A stretch of DNA of 38,090 bases from Methylovirgula sp. (lineage in GTDB: Bacteria; Pseudomonadota; Alphaproteobacteria; Rhizobiales; Beijerinckiaceae), in the NCBI GenBank assembly GCA_031291555.1, contig JARLIV010000171.1, positions 1 to 38,090 on the forward strand, in the 5' to 3' direction. This document shows, piece by piece, positions 1 to 29,852 of this stretch. Numbering within the stretch: the stretch's first letter is position 1; each line of letters starts with the position of its first letter. Both the position numbers and the translations under genes were made by a program. The notes beneath the pieces were generated by a model. That model was not told the DNA's origin. It searched no databases and saw nothing but the letters and a program-made list of their open reading frames with translations.

Positions 1-134
1 ACCTGCGATGGCGTCAGGTCTCCCGCGTCAGCCTGCTCGCGCAGGCGGCGCTTCAGCTTGCCGACCAGCGCGCGAAGTTCGGCTGCCAGGGCGGAGGCGG
101 GTGTGCAATGGGGTTCGGGCAATGGTTCGCTCAT
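1..134 (-). CDS. MarR-family transcriptional regulator, N-terminal part (host flank)
   Basis: The minus strand opens with ATG at 134 and reads without a stop to the window edge, giving 44 residues that begin MSEPLPEPHC. The segment LRALVGKLKRRLREQ followed by DLTPSQV is the pattern of helices 1-2 of MarR-type winged-helix regulators, where the first helices form the dimer interface before the DNA-binding HTH. The HTH and wing lie outside the window, so ligand and targets cannot be judged. It lies on the outer side of the tRNA-derived attachment core at 354-371, so it is probably a chromosomal gene of the host and not part of the prophage. Identification is by family pattern only. Confidence 0.7.
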   Translation of the reverse strand, partial: MSEPLPEPHCTPASALAAELRALVGKLKRRLREQADAGDLTPSQ

Positions 135-336: not shown

Positions 337-354
337 ATTTTCCCGAAGGAAAAT
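337..354 (-). terminator. UUCG-loop hairpin just downstream of the tRNA 3' end
   Basis: On the minus strand this reads ATTTTCC-TTCG-GGAAAAT, a perfect 7-bp stem with a UUCG tetraloop, beginning immediately after the CCA of the tRNA remnant. Its position fits a 3' processing or termination structure of the original tRNA transcription unit. No long U tract follows, so terminator strength is uncertain. Confidence 0.45.
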
Positions 355-371
355 GGCTCCCTGAGTAGGAT
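354..371 (-). other. attL core: 3' end of a tRNA gene (tRNA-Asn-like)
   Basis: Read on the minus strand, the segment splits into CCTAC (3' strand of a 5-bp T-stem), TCAGGGA (7-nt 3' acceptor strand), G (discriminator) and CCA. That is the exact architecture of a bacterial tRNA 3' end. The combination of G73 and acceptor strand best fits tRNA-Asn as I remember it from alphaproteobacteria. The rest of the tRNA is missing on the high-coordinate side, where phage DNA begins. This is what integration at a tRNA leaves at the end where the tRNA is not rebuilt. The intact tRNA should sit at the right junction, outside the window. The length of identity with the true core cannot be known from one junction. 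Confidence 0.65.
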
Positions 372-430: not shown

Positions 431-448
431 AGGCCCCCTTTGGGGCCC
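431..448 (-). terminator. Hairpin at the end of the early leftward operon
   Basis: GGCCCC (432-437) and GGGGCC (442-447) form a 6-bp GC stem with a 4-nt loop that abuts the stop codon of the AlpA-like gene. It is the last structure before the attachment region, so it is the natural end of the leftward early transcript. There is no clean U tract directly after the stem. Confidence 0.5.
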
Positions 449-651
449 TATGCGGCGTGGCTGAAAGCCCCTGTGAGCGCCTGCTGTTTCCAGGTCTCGA
501 TCTCAGCTTCCGTCCACGCGACGCGGCCGCGGCTTATCGGACGGCCGCGGGGAAATTCGCCGCGTGCAATCATGCGGTAGATGGTGGCGCGATGCAGCGA
601 GACCTCGCGCGAGACGTCGCTCATTTTGAGCAAGCGGCCAGGCGCGGTCAT
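448..651 (-). CDS. AlpA-family DNA-binding regulator / probable excisionase
   Basis: A 67-residue MerR-like winged-helix protein of the AlpA/phage excisionase type. The pattern LLKMSDVSREVSLHRATIYRM, then GEFPRG, then a strand ending VAWTEAEIETW is typical: helix-turn-helix in residues 8-30, wing at about 31-45, and the W-x-E-x-E-I-E-x-W ending. These proteins regulate or direct excision of integrated elements. It is the gene nearest the tRNA-derived attL, about 75 bp from the core, which fits a Xis role. It is the most distal gene of the leftward early operon and has a 60-bp gap upstream that could hold its own promoter. No integrase gene is adjacent on this side. Family assignment is firm; Xis function is inferred. 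Confidence 0.8.
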   Translation of the reverse strand: MTAPGRLLKMSDVSREVSLHRATIYRMIARGEFPRGRPISRGRVAWTEAEIETWKQQALTGAFSHAA

Positions 652-711: not shown

Positions 712-2154
712 TCAGTAAAATTGAATACGAAAATCAGGCGCGGTGCGTTGGGCTGTCGCGCGAGTTAACTTGGGGGGGGGGGGGGCTGATTTTGGCTTTT
801 CGCCTGCCTCGAGATCGGCGGTTAATTCAGCCTTGAATTCGTTGAGCGCGAAACTGTGATCGAGGGACCGGTTTTCCTCGAACAGATCGTTGACGCTGCG
901 CAGAACGTCGGCGACCGTCACGCCGCGCGCGACGCCGGCCACCTTATCACGCGCGAAGGCATAGCGCTTCGCCCGTGACGGAATCGATGCAGCCATGGCG
1001 CCGCTAACAATGTGTTCGAGAAGAAAATGCCGGGCGCTTCGCGTTTTGATGTCGAGCTGATCATTTTTGAGCTCGATCCCGATCGTACGGAAATCTGCTA
1101 TTACCTTGAACGGGTCGAACAGGGCCTCGCAGGCGGCGACAACCAGGTTGTCGAGCGGATCCTGGCCGAGCAGGATCCCCGCGAAATTCTTGCGCAGGAT
1201 CGCCTCGATCGCCTCGGCGTTTGGCCGCTTGACGGTGATCTTGAAGTCGCAGCGGCCGTCGCGCAGGACGGCCTGGTCGATGACCTCAGGTCGGTTGGTA
1301 GCAAGCAGCACGAACGCGCCGCTTTCCTGCATGCCGTCCATTTCGGCGAGAAAGGTTGCGACCTGGCCTTCTTCCCAACTCGCGACTCTTCGCACGCGGC
1401 CCGTTCGATCGGGCAGCAGCACGTCGGCTTCATCCATGAAGACAAGCAGTGGATGTCCGTGGCGCGCCTTGTATTCTCGCGCGAACGTGAAAATGGCCTT
1501 GATGTGACCCTCGGTCACGCCGATGAACGGGCTTTGCAGCTCTGATCCGGAAATCGAGATGAACTCGAACTTACCGCCTTTGGCGTAGAGCCGCTTCATT
1601 TCGGAGGCGGCCGCGCGCGCGAACATCGTCTTGCCGCATCCGGGCGGTCCGGAGAGCAGCGCACCCTTGGGCATTTTCATGCCATAGGCATCATATAGTG
1701 ACTTGTGCTTGACGGGCGCCTCAATCGCATCCCGCAACCCCTCGAGCGCCTCGGCATTGCCGACGATGTCGTCGAAGGCCTGCTCGGGCGCGGTGCAGAG
1801 CCACTTTTCGACCCCTTTGCGCGCATCGCTATAGGATTCTGTTGGCGCGCCTGATGCGGAATTGTTAGGCGGCGGCATACCAAATGAATCTCGTATCGCG
1901 CGAAGCATTTCCGCACGGAGGCCTTCATAACTGTTGCCATTATTTGGGCTGATAGTTGTGAACACGGATGGTCCATTCGATGGAAATCCCCGGCCGGCCA
2001 AATCCGGATTGCACATCATGCAGTTGGGATCGCCGCAACCGCTTACCTTGCGCATTTCCTGTTCGCGCCGGTCCTGGTCACGCGGATCCAGCGAGCGGGG
2101 CATCTTCCCGCGATAATTCGGATCGTAGGGAGATCCGTATTTGTCCCAGCTCAT
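712..2154 (-). CDS. AAA ATPase with N-terminal Cys cluster
   Basis: A classical AAA module of the p97/FtsH/Vps4 type. Walker A is GPPGCGKT (residues 169-176), Walker B LLVFMDEAD (236-244), sensor-1 ATN (285-287), and the arginine-rich RDGRCDF segment is at about 298-304. Such ATPases remodel or unfold protein complexes. The ATG at 2154 is preferred over the upstream ATG (2373) because AAGGGG lies 11 nt before it and the upstream extension overlaps another gene. The N-terminus holds C40-x4-C45-x2-C48, a possible metal site, then a low-complexity linker. The C-terminus (480 aa in all) contains a Pro run coded by 14 consecutive C, so its last residues depend on tract length. It is near the end of the early operon. 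A role in replication or in host takeover is possible; nothing in the sequence decides. Confidence 0.85.
   Translation of the reverse strand: MSWDKYGSPYDPNYRGKMPRSLDPRDQDRREQEMRKVSGCGDPNCMMCNPDLAGRGFPSNGPSVFTTISPNNGNSYEGLRAEMLRAIRDSFGMPPPNNSASGAPTESYSDARKGVEKWLCTAPEQAFDDIVGNAEALEGLRDAIEAPVKHKSLYDAYGMKMPKGALLSGPPGCGKTMFARAAASEMKRLYAKGGKFEFISISGSELQSPFIGVTEGHIKAIFTFAREYKARHGHPLLVFMDEADVLLPDRTGRVRRVASWEEGQVATFLAEMDGMQESGAFVLLATNRPEVIDQAVLRDGRCDFKITVKRPNAEAIEAILRKNFAGILLGQDPLDNLVVAACEALFDPFKVIADFRTIGIELKNDQLDIKTRSARHFLLEHIVSGAMAASIPSRAKRYAFARDKVAGVARGVTVADVLRSVNDLFEENRSLDHSFALNEFKAELTADLEAGEKPKSAPPPPKLTRATAQRTAPDFRIQFY
772..785. repeat. Homopolymer G14 (C14 in the coding strand of the AAA gene)
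   Basis: Fourteen G in a row on the plus strand encode the Pro run near the C-terminus of the AAA ATPase. With 14 C the frame continues for 19 residues (KLTRATAQ...QFY). One C fewer gives Ser and a stop almost at once. One C more gives a different 12-residue tail ending at TGA. Confidence 0.95.
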
Positions 2155-3833: not shown

Positions 3834-5044
3834 GACAGCGCCACGACCTTGATATCTGTGAGGCGCTGGCGCAGCCGGGCGTGTAACCGAGCAATGCGAC
3901 CGGGGCCGCGTGGCATTGTTTCGACCGCCGCCATTGCGGACAGGATATCCAGCGCGTCATCCACTTCGGACACCGGCGCGCCCAGGTGCAGCGCGAGATC
4001 TCCGCTGGTGGTCGCGCTTGGCGAGATCTTACGCAGCGCGGCAACGGTGCGAGCGGCGGTCGCAGCGTTGGGATCGAGCAGGAACGCATCGATCGCGCCG
4101 CGCCCCTTCGTAACCAGATGAACATCACGGCTTGTCGCGGCGCATGATCGCAAGGAATCGAGGTCGAGTAGCTCGCGCGCGCGGTCTGCGCCATGGGCTG
4201 CGGACTCGATGAGATCAGGCGTGCAACCCAGGTGTCGCGTGATCGACGGATCGATCTTGATGAGCTCGGGAACGTCGCAGAGCGCCGGCCCGAACGCAAA
4301 AAACATGCCGGGCGCCAGATTGCGAAATCGATCGGCGTTCGTGCGGTCGAAACCGAGCAAGTCTGCCGCGCGCGCGATATCGCGGTCGAACACGTTGATG
4401 CCGACGAGAAAGTTCTGCAGCTCGGAAACAACCGACGTTGCGAGCTTTGCCAGGCGCTGGGTCGCAATGACCGGCGCGACCCCGCGCTTGCGGCCGCGGG
4501 CGCACACATCGGTCAATGTAGCGACTCCGATGCGCCGCGTTTCTGCATCGCGCGCGCTGCCGGCGAGATGCGGGGCGAGCAAGTGACCTTCGTCGATCGC
4601 CAGCAGGACCGTATTCGCCCAATATTCGCGATCGACAGCGATCAGCCCCGATAGAAATGCCGATGCGCGCAAGATGCGGTCTTCGGGATCGAGGTCGGTC
4701 AGATCGACGTGGAGGTTGATCCGGTGCTGCCGGCCGCGAACCGCCGCAGCGGTCAACCCTTCGTTGGTAAGCTCGGCCGCGCGGATAGTGGTTGCGCCAA
4801 TGTGTTCCGCTAGATTGCCGAACTCGCCTTCCGGGTCGACGATCATCACGGTCAGATAATCGAATGCCTCTTCGACGATCTTGCGCAACGTGAAAGATTT
4901 GCCGGCGCCGGAACTGCCCTGGATCAAAAGACGACCCGCCATCAATTTGTCGAGATCGAGATTGATGACGAGCCCGCTGGTGTGGCCGATCGGCACGCGG
5001 TTTGCAGGCGGTACAACGCTGGCGACGGCAGAAAGGGCACTCAT
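3830..5044 (-). CDS. HerA/FtsK-like (DUF87) P-loop ATPase
   Basis: A 404-residue ATPase of the HerA-FtsK superfamily. Walker A is GSSGAGKS (43-50), the strand MIVDPEGEF (67-75) follows the typical HerA D-x-x-x-E/D-x pattern, Walker B is LLAIDEGHLL (147-156), and the motif VIATQR is at 192-197. The family includes hexameric DNA translocases/helicases. The C-terminal third (about 300-404) has a small helical, wHTH-like tail. ATG 5044 is chosen because it forms an ATGA overlap with the upstream gene; a start at 5128 would add a basic tail read inside that gene. No NurA-like nuclease is adjacent. A replication or packaging motor role is inferred. No DnaB- or RepA-type helicase is seen in the window. 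Confidence 0.8.
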   Translation of the reverse strand: MSALSAVASVVPPANRVPIGHTSGLVINLDLDKLMAGRLLIQGSSGAGKSFTLRKIVEEAFDYLTVMIVDPEGEFGNLAEHIGATTIRAAELTNEGLTAAAVRGRQHRINLHVDLTDLDPEDRILRASAFLSGLIAVDREYWANTVLLAIDEGHLLAPHLAGSARDAETRRIGVATLTDVCARGRKRGVAPVIATQRLAKLATSVVSELQNFLVGINVFDRDIARAADLLGFDRTNADRFRNLAPGMFFAFGPALCDVPELIKIDPSITRHLGCTPDLIESAAHGADRARELLDLDSLRSCAATSRDVHLVTKGRGAIDAFLLDPNAATAARTVAALRKISPSATTSGDLALHLGAPVSEVDDALDILSAMAAVETMPRGPGRIARLHARLRQRLTDIKVVALS

Positions 5045-5583
5045 GCGGCGGTACTTTCGATTTCGCCGCCCATGGGGGCGGCATGGCATTTGAAGGTGAG
5101 GACCAAGACAGCGGGGTCGTTTTCCCATTTCGGCGGCCGGATCGATCGCTGGTCAATGAAGCCGCGCAGGCCGGCGTTCCAGGCCTGGGCGAATTGATCA
5201 AGGGTAGTGAAGCCGGCATTGATTGCGTCTGCCGGGGTGATCGATTGCAGGTGGATGGTATCGATTGACGTGATGACAAGGTGCGCGCGATGCCAGGCCT
5301 TGGGGAGTTCGCGGGCAAAGCGCCGACGGCCGAGATCGCTGGTCGCATAATCCGGAAGGTCATGCTCGTCGGACGACATGACTGGGGTGGCGCCGCGATC
5401 AAGCGCCTGCAGGGGGCTGATATGGTCGTAATCGCGGTGAATCCGGAATTGCTCACGGATCCACAGGCGATCGCCCGCGCGACATGCCGCCAGCGCGCCG
5501 CGCGGGCGGCGCAGCGTGGTGCAGGTGCCGTCGAGCACACGGCTGATGGTGGGGGCGATGATCGTGATCGGGCGGTCAGGCAT
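5041..5583 (-). CDS. Phage ASCH/PUA-like protein
   Basis: A 180-residue protein with the strand pattern TTLRRPRGALAACRAGDRLW followed by IREQFRI and, later, LPKAWHRAHLVITSIDTIHL. These are the RNA- or nucleotide-binding features of ASCH/PUA-like barrels found in many phages. The ATG at 5583 overlaps the stop of the preceding gene by 8 nt; longer readings start inside that gene. ASCH domains are thought to bind RNA or modified nucleotides, and some members are hydrolases acting on modified nucleosides. Another ASCH protein lies at 6758-7279. The substrate is unknown. Confidence 0.65.
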   Translation of the reverse strand: MPDRPITIIAPTISRVLDGTCTTLRRPRGALAACRAGDRLWIREQFRIHRDYDHISPLQALDRGATPVMSSDEHDLPDYATSDLGRRRFARELPKAWHRAHLVITSIDTIHLQSITPADAINAGFTTLDQFAQAWNAGLRGFIDQRSIRPPKWENDPAVLVLTFKCHAAPMGGEIESTAA

Positions 5584-6037
5584 GGCCAAGCAGCCCCGCG
5601 ACCGGGCCAAGTTTCTGCTCGCGATATTCCAGCGAGAGCGGCTCGGCGATGCGTTCGTACACTGTCTGGCCGCCGGGCGTGACGACATGGGCGAGAAAGG
5701 CTTCCTCGAATGTCTCAACCCCGCTTTCAATCGATTCAAGCTTGGCTTTGATCACCAGCAGAAGCGCCCGGCCGCGCTGGCGCTTGGACTGCTCCCAGCG
5801 GGCTTCACGTTGAACCCCGGTCAAAGATCGGCCACGTCCGTCGACTGTCGCAATATTGTCCATAGCCGTGAACGGCACGCGGAACCTGACGCGGCGGTCC
5901 TGCATTGTGAACTGGATCGCGAAATTATCGGCGTTTTCGAATTGCCCGATATCATTCGCGCCCACGCGCTTGATCAGGGTGATGATCTCGCTGATCGACT
6001 TTTCGAAGGCTACAGCCGTGTCTTTTGCATACGTCAT
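5576..6037 (-). CDS. Conserved phage protein of unknown function
   Basis: A 153-residue protein with the start MTYAKDTAVAFEKSISEI, a central strand pair RRVRFRVPF, the basic helix RWEQSKRQRGRALLLVIKAK and the ending ETFEEAFLAHVVTPGGQTV. I recall this arrangement from a widespread family of uncharacterised proteins in proteobacterial phage early regions. No catalytic motif is evident. The helix with clustered Arg/Lys suggests nucleic-acid contact. It has a 4-nt overlap with the upstream gene and an 8-nt overlap with the downstream one, so it belongs to the same polycistronic message. Confidence 0.75.
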   Translation of the reverse strand: MTYAKDTAVAFEKSISEIITLIKRVGANDIGQFENADNFAIQFTMQDRRVRFRVPFTAMDNIATVDGRGRSLTGVQREARWEQSKRQRGRALLLVIKAKLESIESGVETFEEAFLAHVVTPGGQTVYERIAEPLSLEYREQKLGPVAGLLGHA

Positions 6038-10383: not shown

Positions 10384-10619
10384 CAGTCGATCCCCAGCGC
10401 GTTTTTGTAGGTCTCGAGAATCGCTTCCATTTCGCGGCGATCGTCGGGCTTCATTTTGCGAAGGCGGACGATTTCGCGGACGATCTTGGCGTCATAGCCG
10501 GTGGCTTTCGCCTCGGCGTAGACGTCCTTGATATCGTCGCCGATACCCTTCTTTTCTTCCTCAAGGCGTTCGATGCGCTCGATCAACAGGCGCAGGCGAT
10601 CATCGGCGGCTTCAGGCAT
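10383..10619 (-). CDS. gapR: GapR-like nucleoid-associated protein (DUF2312)
   Basis: 78 residues. The start [23 protein letters not shown] and the end [20 protein letters not shown] plus R-x-E-x-E-A-I-L-E-T-Y are the DUF2312/UPF0335 signature. Chromosomal GapR of Caulobacter forms coiled-coil tetramers around overtwisted, AT-rich DNA ahead of replication and transcription and is needed for normal replication. Here it is a phage copy in the early operon, which fits a role in phage DNA replication or in altering host nucleoid behaviour. ATG 10619 overlaps the preceding TGA (TGATG). Upstream in-frame codons read through another gene. Confidence 0.9.
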
Positions 10620-10771
10620 CAGACATGGCCTCCAAAGGCGAGGGCAGAGATCAGGATGAGGATGGAGCCGAGCCCGGCCACGCCAGCGGCGAGACGCATG
10701 GCGCCTTCGCCGCGCGCCGATTTTTCGGCGGGCTTGCATCGCGCGGACTGAAAGCGGCCGGGCAGCGACAT
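10619..10771 (-). CDS. 50-residue predicted membrane protein
   Basis: ATG 10771 opens a 50-residue ORF with a basic N-terminus ([20 protein letters not shown]) and one hydrophobic helix near the end ([21 protein letters not shown]). It is the first gene after the internal terminator at 10847-10899 and is coupled to gapR by a TGATG overlap. No family recognised. Confidence 0.6.
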
Positions 10772-10930
10772 CGGGTATCTCCGGGCAGCAGAAACCCGCA
10801 TCCGAAAGCGCGGGAAAGCGCATCGGATCGCGGATGAAACATTGGGAAAATCGGGCGGAGCGCGGCCGGGGAATTTAGGGGCAACCGCGCTCCGCCCGAA
10901 GGCACCACCCATTGGCAGCGCCGCTCAGGG
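10772..10930. other. 159-bp gap inside the early operon holding a strong hairpin
   Basis: This is the only sizeable untranslated gap in the leftward operon. It holds the perfect 15-bp inverted repeat annotated as a terminator. A promoter for the distal early genes could also lie between the hairpin and 10771; I see no clear -35/-10 pair. Confidence 0.6.
10847..10899 (-). terminator. Strong intrinsic terminator within the early leftward operon
   Basis: Arms 10851-10865 and 10885-10899 are a perfect 15-bp, very GC-rich inverted repeat with a 19-nt loop. On the minus strand the stem is followed at once by ATTTTCCC, giving a short U tract at the correct place. On the plus strand no U tract follows. 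It therefore ends leftward transcription after the cro-cII-like genes unless transcripts are antiterminated, much like tL1 in lambda. Confidence 0.8.
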
Positions 10931-11467: not shown

Positions 11468-11667
11468 ACGCGGGGCCCTCCGGGGCCAGCCCTTCGGCAG
11501 CTGGCCCCTTCGGCCATCGTGGGGGAACCATACCAGCCACGATGAACTTTGAGCGCAAAGATGATCCCTCCGCGCGCCGCGCGCCGCGCTGCTGCGGCAA
11601 TGCATCCATTTTGGAGCATATTCGCGCTGCGGCGCAGCATAAGGCGCGGGGCGGAGGAGACCGTCAT
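11464..11667 (-). CDS. 67-residue hypothetical protein between cro-like and CII-like genes
   Basis: This ORF has exact ATGA overlaps with both neighbours, which is the main reason to accept it. The product is basic and has no recognised domain (pieces: MLRRSANMLQNGCIAAAARR, FALKVHRGWYGSP). Amino-acid composition is plain enough that it could be a fortuitous frame, with a shorter start at the internal Met being another option. Confidence 0.45.
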   Translation of the reverse strand: MTVSSAPRLMLRRSANMLQNGCIAAAARRAARGGIIFALKVHRGWYGSPTMAEGASCRRAGPGGPRV

Positions 11668-11975
11668 GCGCGAGCGCTTTCAACAGGATCGACGCCGGAA
11701 GGGTGAACGGCGGACCCTCCCGGCGCCCCCGCTCCATCGGATGGAGGCGAGCGGGTTTCTTCGATCGGATAGATGTCGGGACGAAGGCGATAACGCGAGA
11801 TGCCAGTATCAGCCTCTGTCGCAAGAACGTGCTCGGCCGGCAGCCGCTTCATCCGGTTCAGCCAGTCGAAGACCGTGGGTTGGGACACGCCGCGCCGACG
11901 CGCGAATGCGGCCTGTGATCCCGCGACCTTTACCGCCTCCTGAAGCGCGATTCGCATGATGTCCGAGTCGTCCAT
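11664..11975 (-). CDS. Cro/YdaS-like HTH regulator
   Basis: 103 residues. Residues 8-60 contain a Cro/YdaS-type HTH: ALQEAVKVAGSQAAFARRRG, then V-S-Q-P-T-V-F-D-W-L-N (recognition helix), then RLPAEHVLATEADTGISRY-R-L-R-P-D-I-Y-P. The D-I-Y-P ending of the domain is typical of this family. The C-terminal tail is Pro/Gly-rich. It is divergent from the short repressor across an 87-bp switch region and leads the leftward early operon, so it is the likely Cro counterpart. Confidence 0.85.
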   Translation of the reverse strand: MDDSDIMRIALQEAVKVAGSQAAFARRRGVSQPTVFDWLNRMKRLPAEHVLATEADTGISRYRLRPDIYPIEETRSPPSDGAGAPGGSAVHPSGVDPVESARA

Positions 11976-16320: not shown

Positions 16321-16944
16321 ATGACTATCTGTTCGCTCACTGCATATGCCAAGCGCCACGGCGTGTCGAAGCAAGCGGCGACGAAATGGAAAACCCGAGG
16401 AGTTCTGGTCTTTTCGGGCGACTTGGTCGACGAGAAAGCCTCGGACCGGCGCATGCGCGACGCCGGCCTCGGGCTATACAAACGACCGTCAACCACGGTA
16501 CCTGAGGTTGACCGCCGGCCACCGAAGGTTGACACCAAGCCATCGGGAGTTGACCGCACTGCGGCACCAGCGCCAGCGCTCGAGGATGGCGAGATCGACC
16601 CCGGCGGGATCGAACAGTTCCTCGCCGATCTCAATATCGGCAAATATCGCAGCCAGGTCGACGCCCAGAAGATCAAGGAAAACGTCCTCGCCGCACGCCA
16701 TCTGATGAGCCTGCAAAAAGAGGCGGGCGAACTTATCGAGGTCGAGCGCGCGTCCACGCAGTTTTTCAAACTCGCCCGCGATGCGCGGGATGCCTGGATC
16801 ACCTGGCCCGCCCGGATCGGGCCATTGCTTGCCGCCGACCTGAAGGCGGACACCCCCACCGTCGTCGAGGCGCTCAACCGCTATGTCCAGGAGCAGCTCG
16901 AAAGGATCGGCGCGGCAGAACCGGACTTCGACGAAGAAGAATAG
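16321..16944 (+). CDS. Terminase small subunit, Nu1-like
   Basis: 207 residues from ATG 16321. The N-terminus (MTICSLTAYAKRHGVSKQAA, then T-K-W-K-T-R-G-V-L) is a winged HTH of the Nu1/terminase-small type. The helical C-terminal half runs KYRSQVDAQKIKENVLAARH, then KEAGELIEVE and FFKLARDARDAWITWPARIG. Nu1-type subunits recognise the packaging site and recruit the large subunit. A linker at about 55-80 contains a 7-residue repeat (V-D-R-R-P-P-K, V-D-T-K-P-S-G, V-D-R-T-A-A-P) encoded by 21-bp DNA repeats. No normal Shine-Dalgarno precedes the ATG; the tandem heptamers occupy that place. It overlaps the large-terminase frame by 62 nt if that gene starts at 16883. Confidence 0.85.
   Translation: MTICSLTAYAKRHGVSKQAATKWKTRGVLVFSGDLVDEKASDRRMRDAGLGLYKRPSTTVPEVDRRPPKVDTKPSGVDRTAAPAPALEDGEIDPGGIEQFLADLNIGKYRSQVDAQKIKENVLAARHLMSLQKEAGELIEVERASTQFFKLARDARDAWITWPARIGPLLAADLKADTPTVVEALNRYVQEQLERIGAAEPDFDEEE
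16488..16554 (+). repeat. GGTTGAC cluster with 21-bp period inside the small terminase gene
   Basis: GTCAACC (inverted) lies at 16488-16494, GGTTGAC at 16506 and 16527, and AGTTGAC at 16548. The last three are spaced exactly 21 bp, two helical turns. They also encode the 7-residue V-D repeats of the protein, so part of the regularity may come from the protein. Confidence 0.85.
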
Positions 16945-19036
16945 GGGGCAAGTTCAAAACCCAGCGACATTGCTGGCCCGATCGTTCGCCCGGGGCTGGC
17001 GGCCGCCACCGCGAATCAGCATACCAGACTGGGCCGACGACAAGCGGGTGAAACCGCGCGGCGCCGGCAGCACTGCGGGAAAGTGGCGCACGGCCGACGT
17101 CGAGATCGCACGCGGGCCCATGCTCGCCGGGACGGAACCGGGCGTGCGCACGATCTCAGCGATGGTCGCTACGCAATTGCTCAAGACCTCGCTGATCGAG
17201 AATGTGTTCGGCTTCCACGCCGATCTCGATCCGTGTCCAATGATGATCGTCCAGCCCAAGGACGACGCGGCGGAGCAGTTCAGCAAAGAGCGCATCGCGC
17301 CGTTCATCAGCGCGACGCCGGCGCTGCGGCTGATCGTCGGATCAGCGAAGACCCGCAGTGGCGACGACACGATCAATTACAAGGCCTTTCCGGGCGGCTT
17401 TCTGGCGCTGACCGGCGCCGGCAGCCCGGACAACCTGGCGCGCAGGCCGCTGCGCATCATCATGTATGACGAGGTCGACAAGTACGTCGTCACGCGGGAA
17501 GGGCTTGCCACCGATATCGGCGACGAGCGCCTCGCATCGTTTTCCGGCAATGCGCTTTCGATCCGCGTCTGCTCGCCTACCGTCAAGGGCGAGAGCGCGA
17601 TCGAGGCGAGCTACGATGAATCAGATCAGCGCCGGGCCAGCGTCACCTGCAAGGACTGCGGGCACCGCCAGTTCCTGGAATTCAGACACGTCGAGTGGGA
17701 CAGAGGAGAGGATGGCAAAAGCCACCGGCCCGAGACGGCCGCCATCCATTGCGAGGCCTGCGGCTCAGTATGGAGCGAAGCGCAGCGTCTTCGGTCATTG
17801 GCCACGATACGCTGGCATCAGACCCGCCGGCTTGAATGCTGCGGCGAATGGCAGTCTCCGCTCGACGTGTACGACGCCGCCTGGCGCGCCTCCGATCCCG
17901 ACCCGGTCGGCAAAGCCTGGGATTGGTGGCAGTCCGATCGCTGGGCCGTCTACCGCGCCAAATGCCAGCATTGCGGCGCATGGTCGGTGTCCAACGAACA
18001 TGCCGGCTTCAACGCCAGCAAGCTGTTCTCGCCGTGGGAGCGCGATAGCCCGGCGCTGATCGCGCGAAAATGGATCAATGCCCAGGGCTTCGAAGATCGG
18101 CTGCAAGTCTGGTGGAACACCCAGATGGCGCTGCCCTATCGCAAGAACACGGGCAAGGATGTCTCGGTCGACGCGCTGACAGAGCGGTGCGAGATCTGGG
18201 AAGCGCCGGTACCTGATGGCGTCGCGTTGATCACGCTGGGCATCGACGTCCAGGATTACCGGGTCGAGATCGAGGTCGTTGGCTGGGGGTGGAACGAGGA
18301 AAGCTGGTCGATCGATTACGAAGTGATCGACGGCGAATTTTCGCATCCCGCCACCCAGGCCGCGCTCGACCAGTACCTGCAGCGGATCTGGCATCGCGCC
18401 GACGGACGACCGTTTGCGATGCGCGCCGCGTGCATCGACACGGGCGGGCATCACACAGATGCCGTCTACGAGTATGCAAAGCAGCGCCTCGGCCGCAAGG
18501 TCTGGGGCATCAAGGGCGAAAGCGCGCGGACCGGCTTCACGAACCCGGTATGGCCGATCAAGCGCCCTAGCTCGCGCTCGAAGAAGACGTACCGGCCCGT
18601 GGTGATCGGGGTCAATGCCGCCAAAGATTTCATCCGGTTTTCACTCGCCAAAGCCGAGCCCGGGCCCGGCTACATGCACTTTTCGACGATGACCGATCGC
18701 GCGCGCTTCGATCAGCTGCTCGCCGAGGACATGGTCTACGAGGGGCACGGGTCGCAACGCCGGCGCAAATGGGTGGCCAAGAAAGGCCGCGCCAACGAGG
18801 CGCTTGACTGCCGGGTCTATGCCTATGCGGCGCTCCATGGGCTGATGCACATGGGGCTGAAGCTCAACAAACTTGCCGACGAGATCTACGGCGCGCGCGG
18901 GACCGAGGCCGCGCCGCCGGCAACCCCAGCGGCTCCTCCGATGGCAACAGTCGCGGCTGAGCCGCCGAACCTGACATCGCTGCCGAAAGACGGTGCCAAA
19001 CGCAAACCCGGGTTTACCCGGCGACTTGCCCGATAG
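16883..19036 (+). CDS. Terminase large subunit, GpA family
   Basis: 717 residues from ATG 16883; TTG 16970 (688 residues) is possible because the family usually starts near LLARSFARGWRPPP. Known family: the ATPase-nuclease motor that packages DNA into proheads. Visible parts: DWADDKRVKP and a G-K-W-R-T entry, an ATPase core with MMIVQPKDDAAEQF and Walker B LRIIMYDEVDKY, and zinc-ribbon pairs C-K-D-C-G, C-E-A-C-G and C-Q-H-C-G in the middle. The C-terminal RNase H-like nuclease shows acidic motifs in ITLGIDVQDYRVEIEVVGWG, ACIDTGGHHTDAV and EALDCRVYAYAAL. The last 70 residues are Ala/Pro-rich. Length is normal for the family. It is followed 9 bp later by gpW. Confidence 0.95.
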   Translation: MSRSSSKGSARQNRTSTKKNRGQVQNPATLLARSFARGWRPPPRISIPDWADDKRVKPRGAGSTAGKWRTADVEIARGPMLAGTEPGVRTISAMVATQLLKTSLIENVFGFHADLDPCPMMIVQPKDDAAEQFSKERIAPFISATPALRLIVGSAKTRSGDDTINYKAFPGGFLALTGAGSPDNLARRPLRIIMYDEVDKYVVTREGLATDIGDERLASFSGNALSIRVCSPTVKGESAIEASYDESDQRRASVTCKDCGHRQFLEFRHVEWDRGEDGKSHRPETAAIHCEACGSVWSEAQRLRSLATIRWHQTRRLECCGEWQSPLDVYDAAWRASDPDPVGKAWDWWQSDRWAVYRAKCQHCGAWSVSNEHAGFNASKLFSPWERDSPALIARKWINAQGFEDRLQVWWNTQMALPYRKNTGKDVSVDALTERCEIWEAPVPDGVALITLGIDVQDYRVEIEVVGWGWNEESWSIDYEVIDGEFSHPATQAALDQYLQRIWHRADGRPFAMRAACIDTGGHHTDAVYEYAKQRLGRKVWGIKGESARTGFTNPVWPIKRPSSRSKKTYRPVVIGVNAAKDFIRFSLAKAEPGPGYMHFSTMTDRARFDQLLAEDMVYEGHGSQRRRKWVAKKGRANEALDCRVYAYAALHGLMHMGLKLNKLADEIYGARGTEAAPPATPAAPPMATVAAEPPNLTSLPKDGAKRKPGFTRRLAR

Positions 19037-19045
19037 GAACTGCGC

Positions 19046-19309
19046 ATGTCGCTCGATCATCCCTCGATATTTGCCGGGGTCGCGCCGGCGACTCTGCAGG
19101 CGTGGCTGACGTCGGCTCAGACCGCACTATTCCAGCTCCAGTCGGGCGTTCAGGTTGCCAATGCCAGTTATACGCAGGGCGATGGCGCCAAATCAGTGAG
19201 TTACCGCGCGCCGGACATGGCTGCGCTCAATCTGCTGATCCGCCAGTTGCAACAGGAATTGGGCATAATCCGACGTGCGCGGCGCCCCTTGCGAGTATGG
19301 TTTCGATGA
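19046..19309 (+). CDS. gpW-like head-tail joining protein
   Basis: 87 residues. The segment TLQAWLTSAQTALFQLQSG-V, then V-S-Y-R-A-P-D-M-A-A-L, then LIRQLQQELGI matches lambda gpW, which plugs the portal after packaging. AGGA lies 8 nt before ATG 19046. Its stop overlaps the portal ATG (19306). Gene order terminase-W-portal is as in lambda. Confidence 0.85.
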   Translation: MSLDHPSIFAGVAPATLQAWLTSAQTALFQLQSGVQVANASYTQGDGAKSVSYRAPDMAALNLLIRQLQQELGIIRRARRPLRVWFR

Positions 19310-20967
19310 GCACGCCCGCCGTGCTTGGGCCGAATGGCCAGCCCATCCCCTCAGGCACGATCCAGCGCATCCGCGAACGCGCGCGCGCGCCTCGTGGCGG
19401 CATGCGGGCGCTTAACGGCCAACAGCCGCAATGGTTTCCCTACGACGCTCAGGACTGGACGTCGCCCGACACCGGCGACTGGCTACCCCAGGTCAATTCG
19501 CCCGACCGCGAAATCAACCTCTATCGCGACCGGGTAACGGCGCGCTCGCGTGACCTGTACCGCAACGACAGTTGGGCAAAAGGCGCCATCGGGCGACTAC
19601 TCGATTCGACGATCGGCGGCCATCTACGCCTGGTGGCAAAGCCGGACTATCGCGCGCTCGGCTTCGACATGGTCTGGGCGGAGGAATACCGCGCCGCGGT
19701 CGAGGGGCATTGGCGTAACTGGTCGCAGGATATCCGCCGCCATAACGATCTTTCGCGCCGTCATACCATGACGCAGATGTTTCGGATCGCGCTGGGGCAC
19801 AAGCTGGTCGACGGTGAATCGCTGATCCTGTCGCATTGGCGCCAGGACCGTGTGCTGGCTGAAGGCGCGCCATTTGCCACGTGCTTTCAAGGCATCGATC
19901 CCGACCGGCTGTCGAACCCGTATCAAATGGTCGACACCAAATATCTGCGTGGTGGGGTGGAGATCGACGACGATGATGTCGCGATAGCTTATCACATTCG
20001 CAAGGCGCACCAGAACGACTGGTACAACGCGGTCGAAAGCATGGAATGGGAACGCGTCGATCGCGAAGACCCCGACGGGTGGCAGCGCGTATTCCACGAC
20101 TACGACCCAGACCGGTTCCAGCAGCACCGCGGCATGTCGGTATTTGCGCCAGTTCTCAGCCGCATGAAAATGCTGGCGAAGTATTACCAGGTCGAACTGC
20201 AGGCCGCGACTGTCGCCAGCGCCTTTGGTCTTTACGTCACATCGCCGTTTGACCAGGCCATGGTCCGCGAAGCGCTCGACGACGAGGATCGCGAGGGCGA
20301 AGCCTGGGGTTGGTACCAGGACATGCGGACAGATTTCCACCGCGACAGCGATCTTTCGCTGCAGGGTGCAAAGGTCGCGACGCTGGCGCCTGGCGAAGAG
20401 TTGAAAACGGTCACCGCCGAGCGTCCAAGCAGTGGCTTTTCGCCGTTCACGCATGAAATGCTTCGCTCGATGGGGCAGGTGATCGGCCTGTCGCCCGAAC
20501 AGGCGCACAACGATTATTCGGATTCGAGCTGGTCGAGCGCGAGGTCTGGCATCGTTCAGGCTGAGAAGATGTTCGACCGCCGGACTGCCGACTTTTATGC
20601 CAACAGCGCAACTCCAGTCTATGCGACCTGGCTTGAAGAACTGCACGACCGTCGCATGGTCCCGTTGCCCCGCAATGCTCCTCCGTTCCGGCAGATGCGC
20701 ACTGCCTATTCGCGTTGCCGTTGGCTTGGCGCACCGAAAAAGTGGGTCGATCCTGTGGCCGAACGCCAGGGCGCGGTGCTCGGCCTGGATGCCGCATTTG
20801 ATACGCTGGAAAACGTCTGCGCGACGCAGGGGTTCGATTGGGAAGAAAATCTCGACCAGCGCGCTCGCGAATTCAAGCGGATGAAGGAACTTGGTCTGCC
20901 GCGCCCGGAATGGATCGGCGCCGAACAGTCCGCCGGCGAGGTTTCCAAAAAGCCGGAGGCGCAATGA
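19306..20967 (+). CDS. Portal protein, lambda (gpB) family
   Basis: 553 residues from ATG 19306 (ATGA overlap with gpW). The long upstream extension is out of context. Family motifs include INLYRDRVTARSRDLYRNDS-W, GHKLVDGESLILSH, FQGIDPDRLSNPYQ, AYHIRKAHQNDWY, GMSVFAPVLSRMKMLAKYYQ, ELQAATVASAFGLYV, LAPGEELKTVTAERPSSGFS and the near-C-terminal WLGAPKKWVDPVAE. It forms the dodecameric channel at the head vertex. Size is typical. Confidence 0.95.
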   Translation: MSTPAVLGPNGQPIPSGTIQRIRERARAPRGGMRALNGQQPQWFPYDAQDWTSPDTGDWLPQVNSPDREINLYRDRVTARSRDLYRNDSWAKGAIGRLLDSTIGGHLRLVAKPDYRALGFDMVWAEEYRAAVEGHWRNWSQDIRRHNDLSRRHTMTQMFRIALGHKLVDGESLILSHWRQDRVLAEGAPFATCFQGIDPDRLSNPYQMVDTKYLRGGVEIDDDDVAIAYHIRKAHQNDWYNAVESMEWERVDREDPDGWQRVFHDYDPDRFQQHRGMSVFAPVLSRMKMLAKYYQVELQAATVASAFGLYVTSPFDQAMVREALDDEDREGEAWGWYQDMRTDFHRDSDLSLQGAKVATLAPGEELKTVTAERPSSGFSPFTHEMLRSMGQVIGLSPEQAHNDYSDSSWSSARSGIVQAEKMFDRRTADFYANSATPVYATWLEELHDRRMVPLPRNAPPFRQMRTAYSRCRWLGAPKKWVDPVAERQGAVLGLDAAFDTLENVCATQGFDWEENLDQRAREFKRMKELGLPRPEWIGAEQSAGEVSKKPEAQ

Positions 20968-21227
20968 TCCCCGAATTTTTCACCGCGACGCTGTTCGGCG
21001 GGCGCGCCACCACGCGCATCAATGCCTGCGCGATCAGTCGGCTGAGTACGGCCCATGACGAGGGATGCATGATCTATTTGCAGGGCGGCGACTCGGTCCG
21101 GGTCAACCATTCGGTGCTCGAGGTCGAAAACATGATCGGTGCGCTTCGTCCGCAAACGCGGATTGAACCTCGGGTCGAGATCCGCGCGGTGCCAGAACCA
21201 CGCGGCCCACGCCGAAAGACTGCCTGA
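20964..21227 (+). CDS. Small FlbD-like protein between portal and protease genes
   Basis: 87 residues from ATG 20964, with a 4-nt overlap with the portal gene and a TGATG overlap with the protease gene. The stretch TRINACAISRLSTAHDEGCM-I-Y, then G-G-D-S-V-R-V-N-H-S-V-L-E-V resembles the small FlbD-like fold (strand, Asn, helix, strand, V-x-E-S/V-x-x-E-V). It may be a minor head factor. The basic tail (RGPRRKTA) is notable. Function unknown. Confidence 0.65.
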   Translation: MIPEFFTATLFGGRATTRINACAISRLSTAHDEGCMIYLQGGDSVRVNHSVLEVENMIGALRPQTRIEPRVEIRAVPEPRGPRRKTA

Positions 21228-22075
21228 TGCACCAGTTTGCCCAGCTTTCGCAGCGGCTGTTCAACACGCCGCTGATGATCCTGCCGAACAAGGCAGAGGT
21301 CATCATGGCCAGCTTATCCGAGCGCCTGGGCATCACGGCGATCGTGCGTGCCGGCGGTGACGACTTCACGTGGCGGGACGAGCCCGATGCTGGCTATCGC
21401 GGGTACGATACCGTCGCCAATGTCGCGGTGATCGAGATCCGGGGCACGCTCGTGCAACGCACCGGGACACTGCGGCCCTACAGCGGCATGACTGGCTATG
21501 ACGGCATCCGGCAAAACCTGATTACCGCGCTGGCCGATCCCGATATCGACGCGATCGTGCTCGATATCGACAGCCCGGGCGGCGAAGTGTCTGGGTGTTT
21601 CGATCTGGTCGACACGATCTACCGGGCCCGATCCGTCAAGCCGATCTGGTCGATCTTGGGCGAAAATGCGTTTTCGGCCGCCTATGCGCTCGCCAGCGCG
21701 GCCGACGTCATAACTGTGCCGCGCACGGGGGGAACCGGGTCGATCGGCGTGATTGTCATGCACGTCAGCCTGCAGGAAGCCCTGAAAAAGCAGGGCATTG
21801 AGGTAACGCTCATCACGAAGGGCGATCTGAAGGGCGAAGGCTCGGAGATGTTTAATCTGACCGATGGCGCGTTTGCGCGGATCAAAGCCGACGTCGAGGA
21901 AGTCGGAGACCTGTTCGACCGCACCGTGGCGCGCAATCGCGGCCTGCCGCGCAAGAAGATCTTCGACACCCAGGCCGGCACATATCTGGGCGCCGCCGGC
22001 GTCGATTATGGCCTCGCTGACGCCGTCATGGCTCCTGACGAGGCATTCCGCGCCCTGCTCGAAACGCTGGACTGA
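21227..22075 (+). CDS. Prohead protease, S49 (SppA/gpC) family
   Basis: 282 residues. The strand VANVAVIEIRGTLVQRTG, then V-L-D-I-D-S-P-G-G-E (residues 111-120), then the nucleophile region ENAFSAAYALASAAD with Ser about 150, TGSIGVI at 170-176, and Lys about 202 in GDLKGEG give the Ser-Lys dyad with the usual spacing of about 50. Known role: it cleaves the scaffold and head proteins during capsid maturation, like lambda gpC. Unlike gpC it ends soon after the catalytic domain; the scaffold-type part is encoded by the next gene instead of being fused. Confidence 0.9.
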   Translation: MHQFAQLSQRLFNTPLMILPNKAEVIMASLSERLGITAIVRAGGDDFTWRDEPDAGYRGYDTVANVAVIEIRGTLVQRTGTLRPYSGMTGYDGIRQNLITALADPDIDAIVLDIDSPGGEVSGCFDLVDTIYRARSVKPIWSILGENAFSAAYALASAADVITVPRTGGTGSIGVIVMHVSLQEALKKQGIEVTLITKGDLKGEGSEMFNLTDGAFARIKADVEEVGDLFDRTVARNRGLPRKKIFDTQAGTYLGAAGVDYGLADAVMAPDEAFRALLETLD

Positions 22076-22120
22076 CACCGATCAACCTGGCGCACCGCGC
22101 CAATTCCCAAGGAAAGCTGC

Positions 22121-22891
22121 ATGACCAAACCCGGTTTGATGGCGGGTGCGTCCCGCTTTGCGCATTATGCAGGCCTCGGCCGCCGCCGTCGCGCCGCCGA
22201 TGGCAACGATGAAGGCGAAGAGTACGGCAACCGCAAGGACGGCCGCAAAGCCGAGGACGACGACGATCGCGACGGCGACGAAGACGAGACCGCCCGCCGC
22301 GGGCGCAAGTCGAAGCGCGCCGAAGATCGCGATGATGATGGCAAAGGCGACAAGGACGAGGATTCGGCGCGCCGCTCGAAGAAGTCGCGCGCCGACGATG
22401 ACGAAGGCGACGACGCCGATGATGGCGCCCGCAAGAGCCGCAAGTCCAAGGCCGCCGAAGATGACGAGGACGAGGATTACGATCGCCGTGATGCGCGGCG
22501 CTCGAAAAAGTCCCACGCGGACGATGATGACGGCGATGACGACGAAGACGAAGAACGCGAAATGAACGGCCGTTCCGCGGTCGCTTCGGGCCGCCGTCGT
22601 GAACGTCGACGCTGCTGCGCCATCCTCGAAGCGGCAGCCGATGCGATGGGCAACCCCGCGCTGCTCGAAAGCGCGTTGACCCAGATGGAAAGCACCCACG
22701 GCACCGGTTACGCCGTGCGCCGCATCCAGCGCGCTGCGCGTGCCGCCGAAACCAATGACCGGTCGGAATCGCGAGCGCGCCGCAATCCGAACGTCGGCAG
22801 CGATTCTCCGCCGTCGCGCGGGTCCGCTGCGGAGGCTGCCAAGGGCTGGGGCGCGGCGATCGCCAAAGTCGTGGGCCAGAACAAGGCCTGA
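22121..22891 (+). CDS. Capsid scaffold-like protein with charged repeats
   Basis: 256 residues. After a short basic start comes a long Asp/Glu and Arg/Lys low-complexity region (about 25-150) with four imperfect repeats beginning at Ala 58, 83, 103 and 125, each A-R-R/K then S/G-x-K-S then a run of acidic residues. The C-terminal part (about 155-210: RRRCCAILEAAADAM, then NPALLESALTQMES, then YAVRRIQRA) looks like the helical domain found C-terminal to gpC-type proteases and in Nu3-type scaffolds. Position (protease, this gene, D, E) is that of Nu3. AAGGAAA precedes ATG 22121. The scaffold call is from position and the C-terminal pattern; the repeats are not a known motif to me. Confidence 0.6.
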   Translation: MTKPGLMAGASRFAHYAGLGRRRRAADGNDEGEEYGNRKDGRKAEDDDDRDGDEDETARRGRKSKRAEDRDDDGKGDKDEDSARRSKKSRADDDEGDDADDGARKSRKSKAAEDDEDEDYDRRDARRSKKSHADDDDGDDDEDEEREMNGRSAVASGRRRERRRCCAILEAAADAMGNPALLESALTQMESTHGTGYAVRRIQRAARAAETNDRSESRARRNPNVGSDSPPSRGSAAEAAKGWGAAIAKVVGQNKA

Positions 22892-22918
22892 CGCCCCGCG
22901 CATATCCCTCCCAATCAC

Positions 22919-22944
22919 GGCGCCGATGATGGCGCCCTCTTTTT
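22919..22944 (+). terminator. Intrinsic terminator before the decoration gene
   Basis: GGCGCC-GATGAT-GGCGCC, a 6-bp stem with a 6-nt loop, is followed by CTCTTTTT. It lies in the gap between the scaffold and decoration genes, 15 bp before the D ATG, so it probably attenuates or processes the late transcript. Confidence 0.7.
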
Positions 22945-22958
22945 GAAAGATCACGACA

Positions 22959-23618
22959 ATGGGCAATCCCACTGTTACCCCGATCACCGAGAACTGGCAT
23001 GCGTTCGGCTTCATCATCCAGGAGCCGAGCAATGGCATGTACACTCGTCAGACGATCACGCTGAAGCAAGGCTTCGGCGTGCTGCTGGCGGGTACCGTGC
23101 TCGGTGCATTCCTGACCGGCGCCGCTGTCGCCGCGGCACTCGGCACCAACACCGGCAACGGCACGTTTGGCGCGATAACCGTGGGCGGCGCCGCTTCCAT
23201 CGGCAACTATGTCGTCGAGTTTGACAGCGCGACGACGTTCGTCGTTTCGGCCCCCAATGGCCAGGAAATCGGCCATGGTGCCACCGGCGTGGCATTCAGC
23301 GCCGGCGGCCTCGGCTTCACCATCACCGCTGGCGGCACGCCTTTTGCTGCGGCGGACAGCTTTACCATCGCGGTAACCGGCACGCTGCAATACGCGCCCT
23401 ACGATCCTACCGCGACGAATGGCCTGCAAAATGCCGTCGCCATTCTTGGCAGCGGTCGCCGAGACACCACTTCGGCAGCACAGGCGGCCGTTGCCGTCGT
23501 GCGTGGGCCGATCCGCGTCAATGTGGGCGAACTGGTGTGGGGTGCGAATGTCACCACCAACAACCAGCAGACCGCCGCTCTCGCGGCGCTGACCGCGCTG
23601 GGTATTCTGTCCAGCTAA
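22959..23618 (+). CDS. Head decoration protein, gpD family
   Basis: 219 residues. The N-terminal QTITLKQGFGVLLAGTVLGA and the C-terminal part (YAPYDPTATNGLQNAVAILG, then VVRGPIRVNVGELVWG) are the lambda gpD-like decoration fold. A beta-rich insertion of about 85 residues (about 60-150, rich in Gly, Ala and Thr: GNGTFGAITVGG..., FTITAGG) roughly doubles the size compared with lambda gpD. Decoration trimers stabilise the expanded capsid. ATG 22959 follows the terminator; the weak GAAAGATCACGAC is the only nearby purine-rich sequence. Confidence 0.9.
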   Translation: MGNPTVTPITENWHAFGFIIQEPSNGMYTRQTITLKQGFGVLLAGTVLGAFLTGAAVAAALGTNTGNGTFGAITVGGAASIGNYVVEFDSATTFVVSAPNGQEIGHGATGVAFSAGGLGFTITAGGTPFAAADSFTIAVTGTLQYAPYDPTATNGLQNAVAILGSGRRDTTSAAQAAVAVVRGPIRVNVGELVWGANVTTNNQQTAALAALTALGILSS

Positions 23619-23706
23619 GTCGCGCATTTCGCCCCTTTTACCGGCCCTTGGGCAAGGCCGTTGGTCCCGCTGCGAAGCGGTTCCCTTCCCTTAGACGGAG
23701 CCCCCA
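23619..23706 (+). promoter_or_regulatory. Structured leader before the major capsid gene
   Basis: The 88-bp gap holds a CGGCC/GGCCG hairpin (about 23642-23660) and CCGCT-GCGA-AGCGG (23667-23680), a stem with a GNRA loop, then ACGGAG ahead of ATG 23707. No U tract follows the stems. They may stabilise or process the capsid mRNA. Function is inferred. Confidence 0.4.
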
Positions 23707-24747
23707 ATGGTCTCGCTCGACATTTTCCATCAAGACCCTTTCTCGACGTTTCAGCTGACCGCTGCCGTCGAGCGCATCCCGCACAATCCCCAAATTCTGG
23801 GGGACATGAATATCTTCGAACCGTTCCCGATCCGCACGACCGCGCTCGGTATCGAAGAACGCACCGGCACGCTCAGCCTGATCAAGACCTCACAACGCGG
23901 CGCGCCGCCGTCGACCGACCGTACGACGGAGCAGCGCAAGCTGCGCTACTTCGACACCGTGCGCATCAGTCACGACGATACGGTTTCCGCCTCGGAGCTC
24001 CAGAATATCCGCGCCTTCGGCACCGAGACCGAGCTCATGCAGGTTCAGGCCGAAGTCGCTCGGCGCCTCGCAGGCCCTACCGGCCTGATCCCGCGCATCC
24101 AGTATACCTGGGAAAACATGCGCCTCGGCGCGATCCAGGGCGTGCTCACCGATGCCGACGGGAGCGTCCTGTACAACTGGTTCGATGAGTTCCAGATTTC
24201 GCAGCCCGCCGAGGTCGTGTTCGATCTGTCCGCGAACCTTGTCGGCACGCTGCGGCCTCTGATCAATCAGATCGTGCGCGGTATGCGGCGTGCGGCCAAG
24301 GGCGCGTTCTTGCCCTCCACTCAGATCATCGCGCTGTGCGGCGATACGTTCTGGGATGAATTCGTCGCGCACCCCGACGTTGTCGATACCTACAAGAACT
24401 GGCAGGAAGCAGCGGAGCTGCGCGGCGACTGGGCCTTCGGTACGTTCTATTTCGGCGGGATCACGTGGATCAACTACCGCGGATCGGACGATGCAAGCAC
24501 GATCTCGATCGCCGCCAACAAGGTGAAGTTCTTCCCCAAAGGCGCGCCGGGCATTTTCCGTCATGTCATGGCGCCGGGCGAAGCGTTCCAATGGGTAAAC
24601 ACGCCCGGGAAAGAATATTACGTGATTCCGATCCTCGACTGGGAACGCAACACGTTCTGGCGCATGGAAGCCTACTCCTATCCGCTGTTCATCTGCACCC
24701 GCCCCGAGGTGCTCTGGTCCGGCACCGCAGATAGCACTGCGGATTGA
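23707..24747 (+). CDS. Major capsid protein, gpE family
   Basis: 346 residues with the lambda gpE family signature: VSLDIFHQDPFSTFQLTAAV, then RIPHNPQILGDMNIFEPFPI, TLSLIKTSQRGAPPSTDRT, DTVRISHDDTVSASELQNIR, LVGTLRPLINQIVRGMRRAA, GDTFWDEFVAHPDVVDTYKN, and the C-terminal YVIPILDWERNTFWRMEAYS-Y-P-L-F-I-C-T-R-P. It builds the head shell with an HK97 fold. Length matches the family. The gene is framed by a structured leader and a strong terminator, consistent with separate control of the most abundant head protein. Confidence 0.96.
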   Translation: MVSLDIFHQDPFSTFQLTAAVERIPHNPQILGDMNIFEPFPIRTTALGIEERTGTLSLIKTSQRGAPPSTDRTTEQRKLRYFDTVRISHDDTVSASELQNIRAFGTETELMQVQAEVARRLAGPTGLIPRIQYTWENMRLGAIQGVLTDADGSVLYNWFDEFQISQPAEVVFDLSANLVGTLRPLINQIVRGMRRAAKGAFLPSTQIIALCGDTFWDEFVAHPDVVDTYKNWQEAAELRGDWAFGTFYFGGITWINYRGSDDASTISIAANKVKFFPKGAPGIFRHVMAPGEAFQWVNTPGKEYYVIPILDWERNTFWRMEAYSYPLFICTRPEVLWSGTADSTAD

Positions 24748-24757
24748 TAGATCGGGC

Positions 24758-24802
24758 GACGGCCGGGGACATTGCCCCTCCACCCCGGCCGTCCGCCTTT
24801 TT
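24758..24802 (+). terminator. Strong terminator after the major capsid gene
   Basis: GACGGCCGGGG (24758-24768) and CCCCGGCCGTC (24783-24793) form a perfect 11-bp stem, loop 14 nt, followed after CGCC by TTTTT. It closes the head module; tail genes must be reached by read-through, antitermination or another promoter. Confidence 0.85.
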
Positions 24803-24827
24803 CTAATCGGTTTTGAAAGCACCCGGC

Positions 24828-25163
24828 ATGGCGATCGACTGGGACGGCCTGGTGCTGAAGGGCGTCATGGACATTTTTGGCGAACCGATCAGCTATGTCC
24901 CGCGTGGAGGCGCGCCGATCGCGATCACCGACGCCGTCTTCGATGAGGAAAGCGCTGAGATTGCGGTCGGTGAGGATGGCCAGATGGCCACTCTGCGCAA
25001 GCCGACCTGTGGGATTCGTGTTGCCGCACTGGGTGGGGCGATTGCCTCGCAGAGCGATACAATGATTCGGATTGCGACCGGCCTCGCCTATATCGTCAAG
25101 GACGTCGTGCCCGATGGTCATGGGCACATTCGGCTGACGCTGATGACGAAGGGCGGCCAATGA
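24828..25163 (+). CDS. FII-like head-tail joining protein
   Basis: 111 residues from ATG 24828; the in-frame TTG 24813 is unlikely. The pattern IDWDGLVLKGVMDIFGEPIS-Y, then ITDAVFDE, then T-C-G-I-R-V, then VKDVVPDGHGHIRLTLM is the gpFII/Gifsy-2-type beta-barrel adaptor that links head to tail. Position directly after capsid protein E fits. It overlaps the next ATG by 4 nt. Confidence 0.8.
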   Translation: MAIDWDGLVLKGVMDIFGEPISYVPRGGAPIAITDAVFDEESAEIAVGEDGQMATLRKPTCGIRVAALGGAIASQSDTMIRIATGLAYIVKDVVPDGHGHIRLTLMTKGGQ

Positions 25164-25717
25164 GCTCTGACCGCATCCTTTTTCTGTGCGACGCAGGGCT
25201 GAAAGCGGACGGCGCGACCGGTGCCGGCAGGCGCGTCTATTCCCCGGGTGATTGGCCGTCGCAAAAGGCCACATTGCCGCAGATCAAGCTGCGCATCTTG
25301 CGCGAGGTTCGGCAATCTCTTGGGCGCTCGGGCGCGCCGGAATTCACGACGACCACGACGATCCGGATCCTCGCAGAGGCGCAGGCCTATGCGCTTGAGG
25401 ATAACGCCGGCGCGACGGCGGCCGAGGCGGCGGCATGGGCGCTCAAGCGGCAGATCGAGGTCGCGATCATCAATTCGTATCCACTGTTTTCCGAGATCCA
25501 GCAGCTTGCCTCCATGCGGTCCGATCTCGCGTACACGTCGGAAGGCGACACGCATGTTGCGGGGATCCAGATGGATCTCGATTTTGATTTTTTCGAGGGC
25601 GCAGAATGCTTCGCGCCGATCGCCACCAGCGATCCGACCACCATTCGGATCGATCCCACCAATTATGCGCCGGCCTCGATCGACATCGACGTGCGCGGCC
25701 CGCTTGCATCCAGTTAG
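25160..25717 (+). CDS. Putative tail terminator/completion protein
   Basis: 185 residues. It contains FTTTTTIRILAEAQAYA, then an alpha-helical piece, then beta strands VAGIQMDLDFDFFEGAECF, A-S-I-D-I-D-V-R. This strand-helix-strand layout and the position between the FII-like protein and the sheath match Mu gp37-type and gpU-like tail-end proteins. No sequence motif proves it. It overlaps the previous gene by 4 nt. Confidence 0.55.
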   Translation: MSSDRILFLCDAGLKADGATGAGRRVYSPGDWPSQKATLPQIKLRILREVRQSLGRSGAPEFTTTTTIRILAEAQAYALEDNAGATAAEAAAWALKRQIEVAIINSYPLFSEIQQLASMRSDLAYTSEGDTHVAGIQMDLDFDFFEGAECFAPIATSDPTTIRIDPTNYAPASIDIDVRGPLASS

Positions 25718-25726
25718 GAGACCGCC

Positions 25727-25933
25727 ATGCGTGTTGTCAGTGTCCCGGGGCGCACCGTGCGCCACTGGGTGACCGGTCGCGTCATCGATGACGCCGGGAT
25801 CGCCTATGACCCGCATTGCGTCACGACCGCCCACTATCTGGGCCATGGCGATCTGCAGTTGGTCGATCGCGATCCGGATGGACCGCTGGCCGACGCGCCG
25901 GCCCCCGCCATCGAACACGACGCAGCGGAGTAA
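25727..25933 (+). CDS. DUF2635 protein (Mu gp38-like)
   Basis: 68 residues. The start MRVVSVPGRTVRHWVTGRVI and the later DLQLVDRDPDGPL match DUF2635 (V-x-P-x-x-G-x-x-V-R-x-P-x-x...L...G...V), a small protein always beside the sheath in Mu-like tails. TAGGAG precedes ATG 25727. Role unknown. Confidence 0.75.
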   Translation: MRVVSVPGRTVRHWVTGRVIDDAGIAYDPHCVTTAHYLGHGDLQLVDRDPDGPLADAPAPAIEHDAAE

Positions 25934-25939
25934 CCGGAT

Positions 25940-27451: not shown

Positions 27452-27463
27452 GGATCCTCGATC

Positions 27464-27823: not shown

Positions 27824-27824
27824 C

Positions 27825-29837: not shown

Positions 29838-29852
29838 GCGGGGCTGCGCGTC

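Follow-up and report, generated by a model that had tools for sequence, protein, structure and literature searches.

tRNA 3′ Ends at the Boundaries of Related Prophages

In the islands and prophages catalogued by Islander (PMC4383910), a displaced tRNA fragment lies at one end of the element and a regenerated tRNA at the other, and the element itself encodes a tyrosine integrase. The locus described here follows the same principle, but the window, i.e., the whole contig of 38,090 bases that we analysed (C19), shows the fragment end only. Such sites have long been known, and this one is an ordinary viral insertion in a tRNA gene; its extra value lies in a mismatch between the prophage and the genome with which it was binned, and in a left end that is constant across prophages with different tRNA targets.

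Two viral relatives have both ends on one contig. IMGVR_UViG_3300020426_000010 carries a whole tRNA-Pro and a tyrosine integrase at one end and, at the other, a 19-nt copy of the tRNA-Pro 3′ end beyond its ATPase and AlpA genes. IMGVR_UViG_2687453790_000001 carries a whole tRNA-Tyr with a tyrosine integrase, and a 27-nt copy on the AlpA side. Both resemble the window in having the order ATPase, AlpA, tRNA 3′ fragment at one end, but their targets (tRNA-Pro and tRNA-Tyr) differ from the tRNA-Asn found here. Two other relatives were informative about the fragment end. In IMGVR_UViG_3300034072_001831 an AlpA relative is followed by a 17-mer identical to the window's core at the equivalent place, and then by a different, non-phage-like gene; in IMGVR_UViG_3300048630_000558 an AlpA relative at 69% identity is followed by the tRNA-Asn 3′ end CGAATCCAACTCGGGGAGCCA and then by the C-terminus of secA, a gene that lies about 4 kb from tRNA-Asn in Sphingomonas parapaucimobilis. 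tRNA 3′ ends are thereby present at the equivalent position in four relatives, which lends strong and independent weight to reading the window's fragment as an attL in tRNA-Asn. A search of viral contigs with the core of the assembly's own genus gave no clear related junction.

The closest relative over the whole window, IMGVR_UViG_2775506979_000002, is collinear over 37 kb (terminase 84% and ATPase 76% identical), but its integrase adjoins a tRNA-Ser and the AlpA end is missing from its record. We tentatively suggest, as a reading about which we remain slightly doubtful, that the left end of the related prophages stays constant (ATPase, AlpA and a tRNA 3′ fragment that begins in the T-loop) and that integrase and target (Asn, Ser, Pro or Tyr) vary, so that an att half-site at one end would be swapped together with the integrase at the other. 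Five further viral contigs (L110, L122, L124, L125 and L133) carry tRNA-Asn fragments with the same 3′ end as in the window, but these copies start in the anticodon arm and are more than twice as long, whereas that of the window starts in the T-loop. Within tRNA-Asn genes of this type there thus appear to be two distinct sublocations at which integration takes place.

Identity of the Attachment Core

The features of the window on which the analysis draws are as follows.

3-134, minus strand: N-terminal 44 codons of a chromosomal-type MarR-family regulator, host side, cut by the contig end
338-353, minus strand: hairpin TTTTCC-TTCG-GGAAAA directly after the CCA, host side (fold of 330-372, z -2.24)
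354-371, minus strand: very probable attL core, the last 18 bases of tRNA-Asn with terminal G and CCA
372-447, no strand: AT-rich phage side of the junction, read from the sequence
448-651, minus strand: AlpA-like regulator (PF05930, E=1.2e-13), adjoining the junction
712-2154, minus strand: AAA+ ATPase, the next phage gene after AlpA (62-76% identical to its counterparts in five viral relatives)
16883-19036, plus strand: terminase large subunit (phrog_15, E=3e-196; 84% identical to that of IMGVR_UViG_2775506979_000002)
19102-35064, plus strand: portal, protease, major head, tail sheath, tape measure and baseplate genes of a contractile-tail phage (PHROGs matches)
38090, no strand: contig end within the prophage; the right attachment site and the integrase are absent from the contig

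Read on the minus strand from 371 to 354, the core is ATCCTACTCAGGGAGCCA, which comprises the two last T-loop bases, CCTAC (3′ strand of the T-stem), TCAGGGA (3′ strand of the acceptor stem), the discriminator G and CCA. The 3′-terminal 18 bases of tRNA-Asn in S. parapaucimobilis NZ_CP155749.1 are identical to it (18/18), and the 3′-terminal 17 bases of tRNA-Asn in the window's own assembly (contig C253, 771-846) agree with it at 16/17, the single mismatch sitting at the edge that faces the phage. When the window was compared with the 28 distinct tRNA 3′ ends of the assembly, this match to tRNA-Asn was the best and the runner-up anywhere reached 14/17. A sequence-only reading had placed a tRNA 3′ end here and assigned it to tRNA-Asn, and both points are borne out. 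The same reading had described the segment as a 3′ half that folds; it is closer to one quarter of a tRNA, and it does not fold alone (z -0.27) because it supplies only one strand of each of two stems. The exact 17-mer was not found in the other sampled genomes, 397 from the family and 385 from the class, the latter drawn evenly over the group and possibly containing few sphingomonads.

We are confident that a contractile-tail prophage has integrated in the 3′ end of a tRNA-Asn gene of its host and that its attL core lies at 354-371. The core separates phage DNA (AlpA, the AAA+ ATPase and then the contractile-tail genes) from a host-type MarR gene, which fixes the left prophage boundary to the base and makes the candidate attB testable. 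Phage DNA adjoins the fragment at its 5′ end and host DNA at its 3′ end, the orientation to be expected at a junction where the tRNA is not rebuilt, so the orientation read from the sequence was correct. A tRNA search over all 38,090 bases found no tRNA gene.

The Host of the Prophage

The assembly to which the window belongs comprises 278 contigs and 2.42 Mb and is 88% complete. Its tRNA-Asn on C253 is intact and unoccupied, which the sequence-only reading had not anticipated, and the flank of this gene is unlike that of the window. C253 is 87.7% identical to, and collinear over 4 kb with, a genome of the same genus (G005), both sides of the tRNA included; as assembled, the prophage is not in the tRNA-Asn of C253. 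The cold-shock gene downstream of tRNA-Asn is conserved in several members of the genus, and each member with a full-length match has one copy of the tRNA. The assembly's own MarR locus lies beside hemH on C13, where it is syntenic with G005 (84.6% identical), and the MarR of the window is only 48% identical to it. Given an undisturbed, empty tRNA-Asn in synteny with G005, and a MarR locus at another place, the window has probably been misbinned or comes from another host rather than from the assembled genome. The host would then probably be a different bacterium, one whose tRNA-Asn resembles that of Sphingomonas. On a viral contig (L119), a NAD kinase gene beside such a tRNA-Asn resembles the Sphingomonas neighbourhood. 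No sampled host genome had a tRNA-Asn beside the MarR gene of the window, and a literature search for tRNA-Asn prophages of Sphingomonas found no paper.

The alternative that survives best keeps the prophage in the species of the assembly, in a strain with a MarR-bearing island after its tRNA-Asn; the empty site on C253 would then come from non-lysogens and the mismatch in the core from the phage. The assembly does contain strain variation: positions 1-371 of C253 and of C193 (G000) overlap with 98% identity, which points to a mixture of strains. The position of the mismatch, on the edge towards the phage, would also suit this alternative, as would the tetranucleotide profile of the window, which singles out no other host. 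The single tRNA-Asn copy and the conserved cold-shock gene in the genus argue against it, however, as do the separate MarR locus beside hemH and a core that is exact to the Sphingomonas tRNA but not to the assembly's own. Altogether we regard this variant as unlikely, although it deserves to be kept in mind, and misbinning as the simplest reading. The window is thus unfit as evidence for a phage-host pair with its genome bin.

The Host Side of the Junction

The MarR fragment at 3-134 shares 72-74% amino acid identity over most of its 44 residues with chromosomal MarR genes of several genera, which sit in a locus of MarR, an isochorismatase-like hydrolase, a membrane protein and an MFS transporter; the match in Variovorax is annotated as MarR, isochorismatase and MFS. 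A Pfam search with the 44 residues gave no match, and in plasmids of named hosts the fragment found distant matches only.

This chromosomal character bears on a second alternative, under which the contig would come from a free phage, with the 18 bases as attP and positions 1-353 as phage DNA that includes a MarR gene. An attP would bear the same tRNA 3′ fragment, the contig stops inside the MarR gene so that the farther context is out of view, and the assembly's own attB is empty, all of which would fit. The MarR fragment, however, matches chromosomal genes in a conserved locus, the relatives have their own differing flanks just past the fragment (the secA end among them), and their integrase lies next to the tRNA at the end opposite AlpA. 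We therefore consider a free phage genome very improbable.

A chance resemblance between a phage end and a tRNA 3′ end can practically be dismissed: in a control of 100 base-shuffled windows, each of the full 38 kb and scored against the tRNA ends, a match of at least 16 to some tRNA end did occur anywhere in the 38 kb in 2, but such a match less than 700 bases from an end is far rarer than that, and the observed one falls on the phage-host boundary, agrees with a known tRNA-Asn at 18/18 and has tRNA 3′ ends at its equivalent position in four relatives, so that we count chance as already refuted. A Mu-like transposable phage combined with a chance tRNA match was likewise rejected, as the integrases of the relatives adjoin tRNAs and tRNA fragments recur at the same end.

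Integration and the Phage Genes at the Junction

The arrangement suggests the following route for integration in a tRNA-Asn gene. The phage attP would carry a copy of the last 17-20 or so bases of tRNA-Asn, and an integrase, presumably of the tyrosine type, would recombine it with the 3′ end of the host gene. The phage copy would then restore tRNA-Asn at the integrase end, beyond the window, while the host's own 3′ fragment would be displaced to the AlpA end, between AlpA and the host MarR gene. During excision, AlpA probably acts as the directionality factor.

The AlpA-like protein scores 51.1 bits against Pfam PF05930 (cut-off 21) and is thus a member of this family. Relatives at 69% and at 51-55% identity adjoin tRNA-Asn fragments, and the order ATPase, AlpA, end of the prophage recurs in three of the five viral relatives. 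Because it belongs to this family and always stands at this prophage end, AlpA is a probable excisionase or directionality factor. An inverted repeat read from the sequence, TAGGATAA (366-373) and TTATCCTA (397-404), lies close by, and its left arm extends into the attachment core at the edge; it is possibly a binding site for the integrase or AlpA.

The ATPase gene contains a run of 14 G at 772-785, in its 3′ part, and the end of its frame is unlike that of the relatives, possibly as a result of assembly or slippage. A contig scan with the ATPase alignment picked up only general AAA+ ATPases. Farther into the phage, the genes at 10386-10823 and 11667-11975 encode a GapR-like DNA-binding domain and a YdaS-like domain, respectively (Pfam).

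The Right End of the Prophage

No match to the tyrosine integrase family PF00589 was found in the window, and the relatives carry their integrase in the part that the window lacks. Positions 715-37635 are collinear with the closest relative, IMGVR_UViG_2775506979_000002 (53140-14712 in relative G150), whose other 14.7 kb hold two tyrosine integrases, one of them immediately next to a tRNA-Ser. By this comparison, the contig would stop about 14.7 kb short of the prophage end, and we estimate the whole prophage at about 50 kb. The two-ended layout of the relatives, in which a whole tRNA stands at the far end as the sequence-only reading had forecast for this prophage, predicts an integrase and a whole tRNA-Asn at the right end, beyond the window. 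The window holds no second copy of the core, and in the rest of the assembly the only close copy was the empty tRNA-Asn site on C253. As a right end, C253 would fit in geometry, but the DNA downstream of its tRNA is the genus-conserved cold-shock gene, and it was rejected. Two other candidates for the missing end, C97 and C226, were also set aside, since they showed only generic integrase and tRNA-Ser similarity.

Near their tRNA end, IMGVR_UViG_2775506979_000002, IMGVR_UViG_3300020426_000010 and IMGVR_UViG_2687453790_000001 each have a pair of oppositely oriented tyrosine integrases. In the first of these (L180) they lie at 1403-2689 on the plus strand and at 4716-5999 on the minus strand, and both contain the Arm-DNA-bind_3 and Phage_int_M domains.
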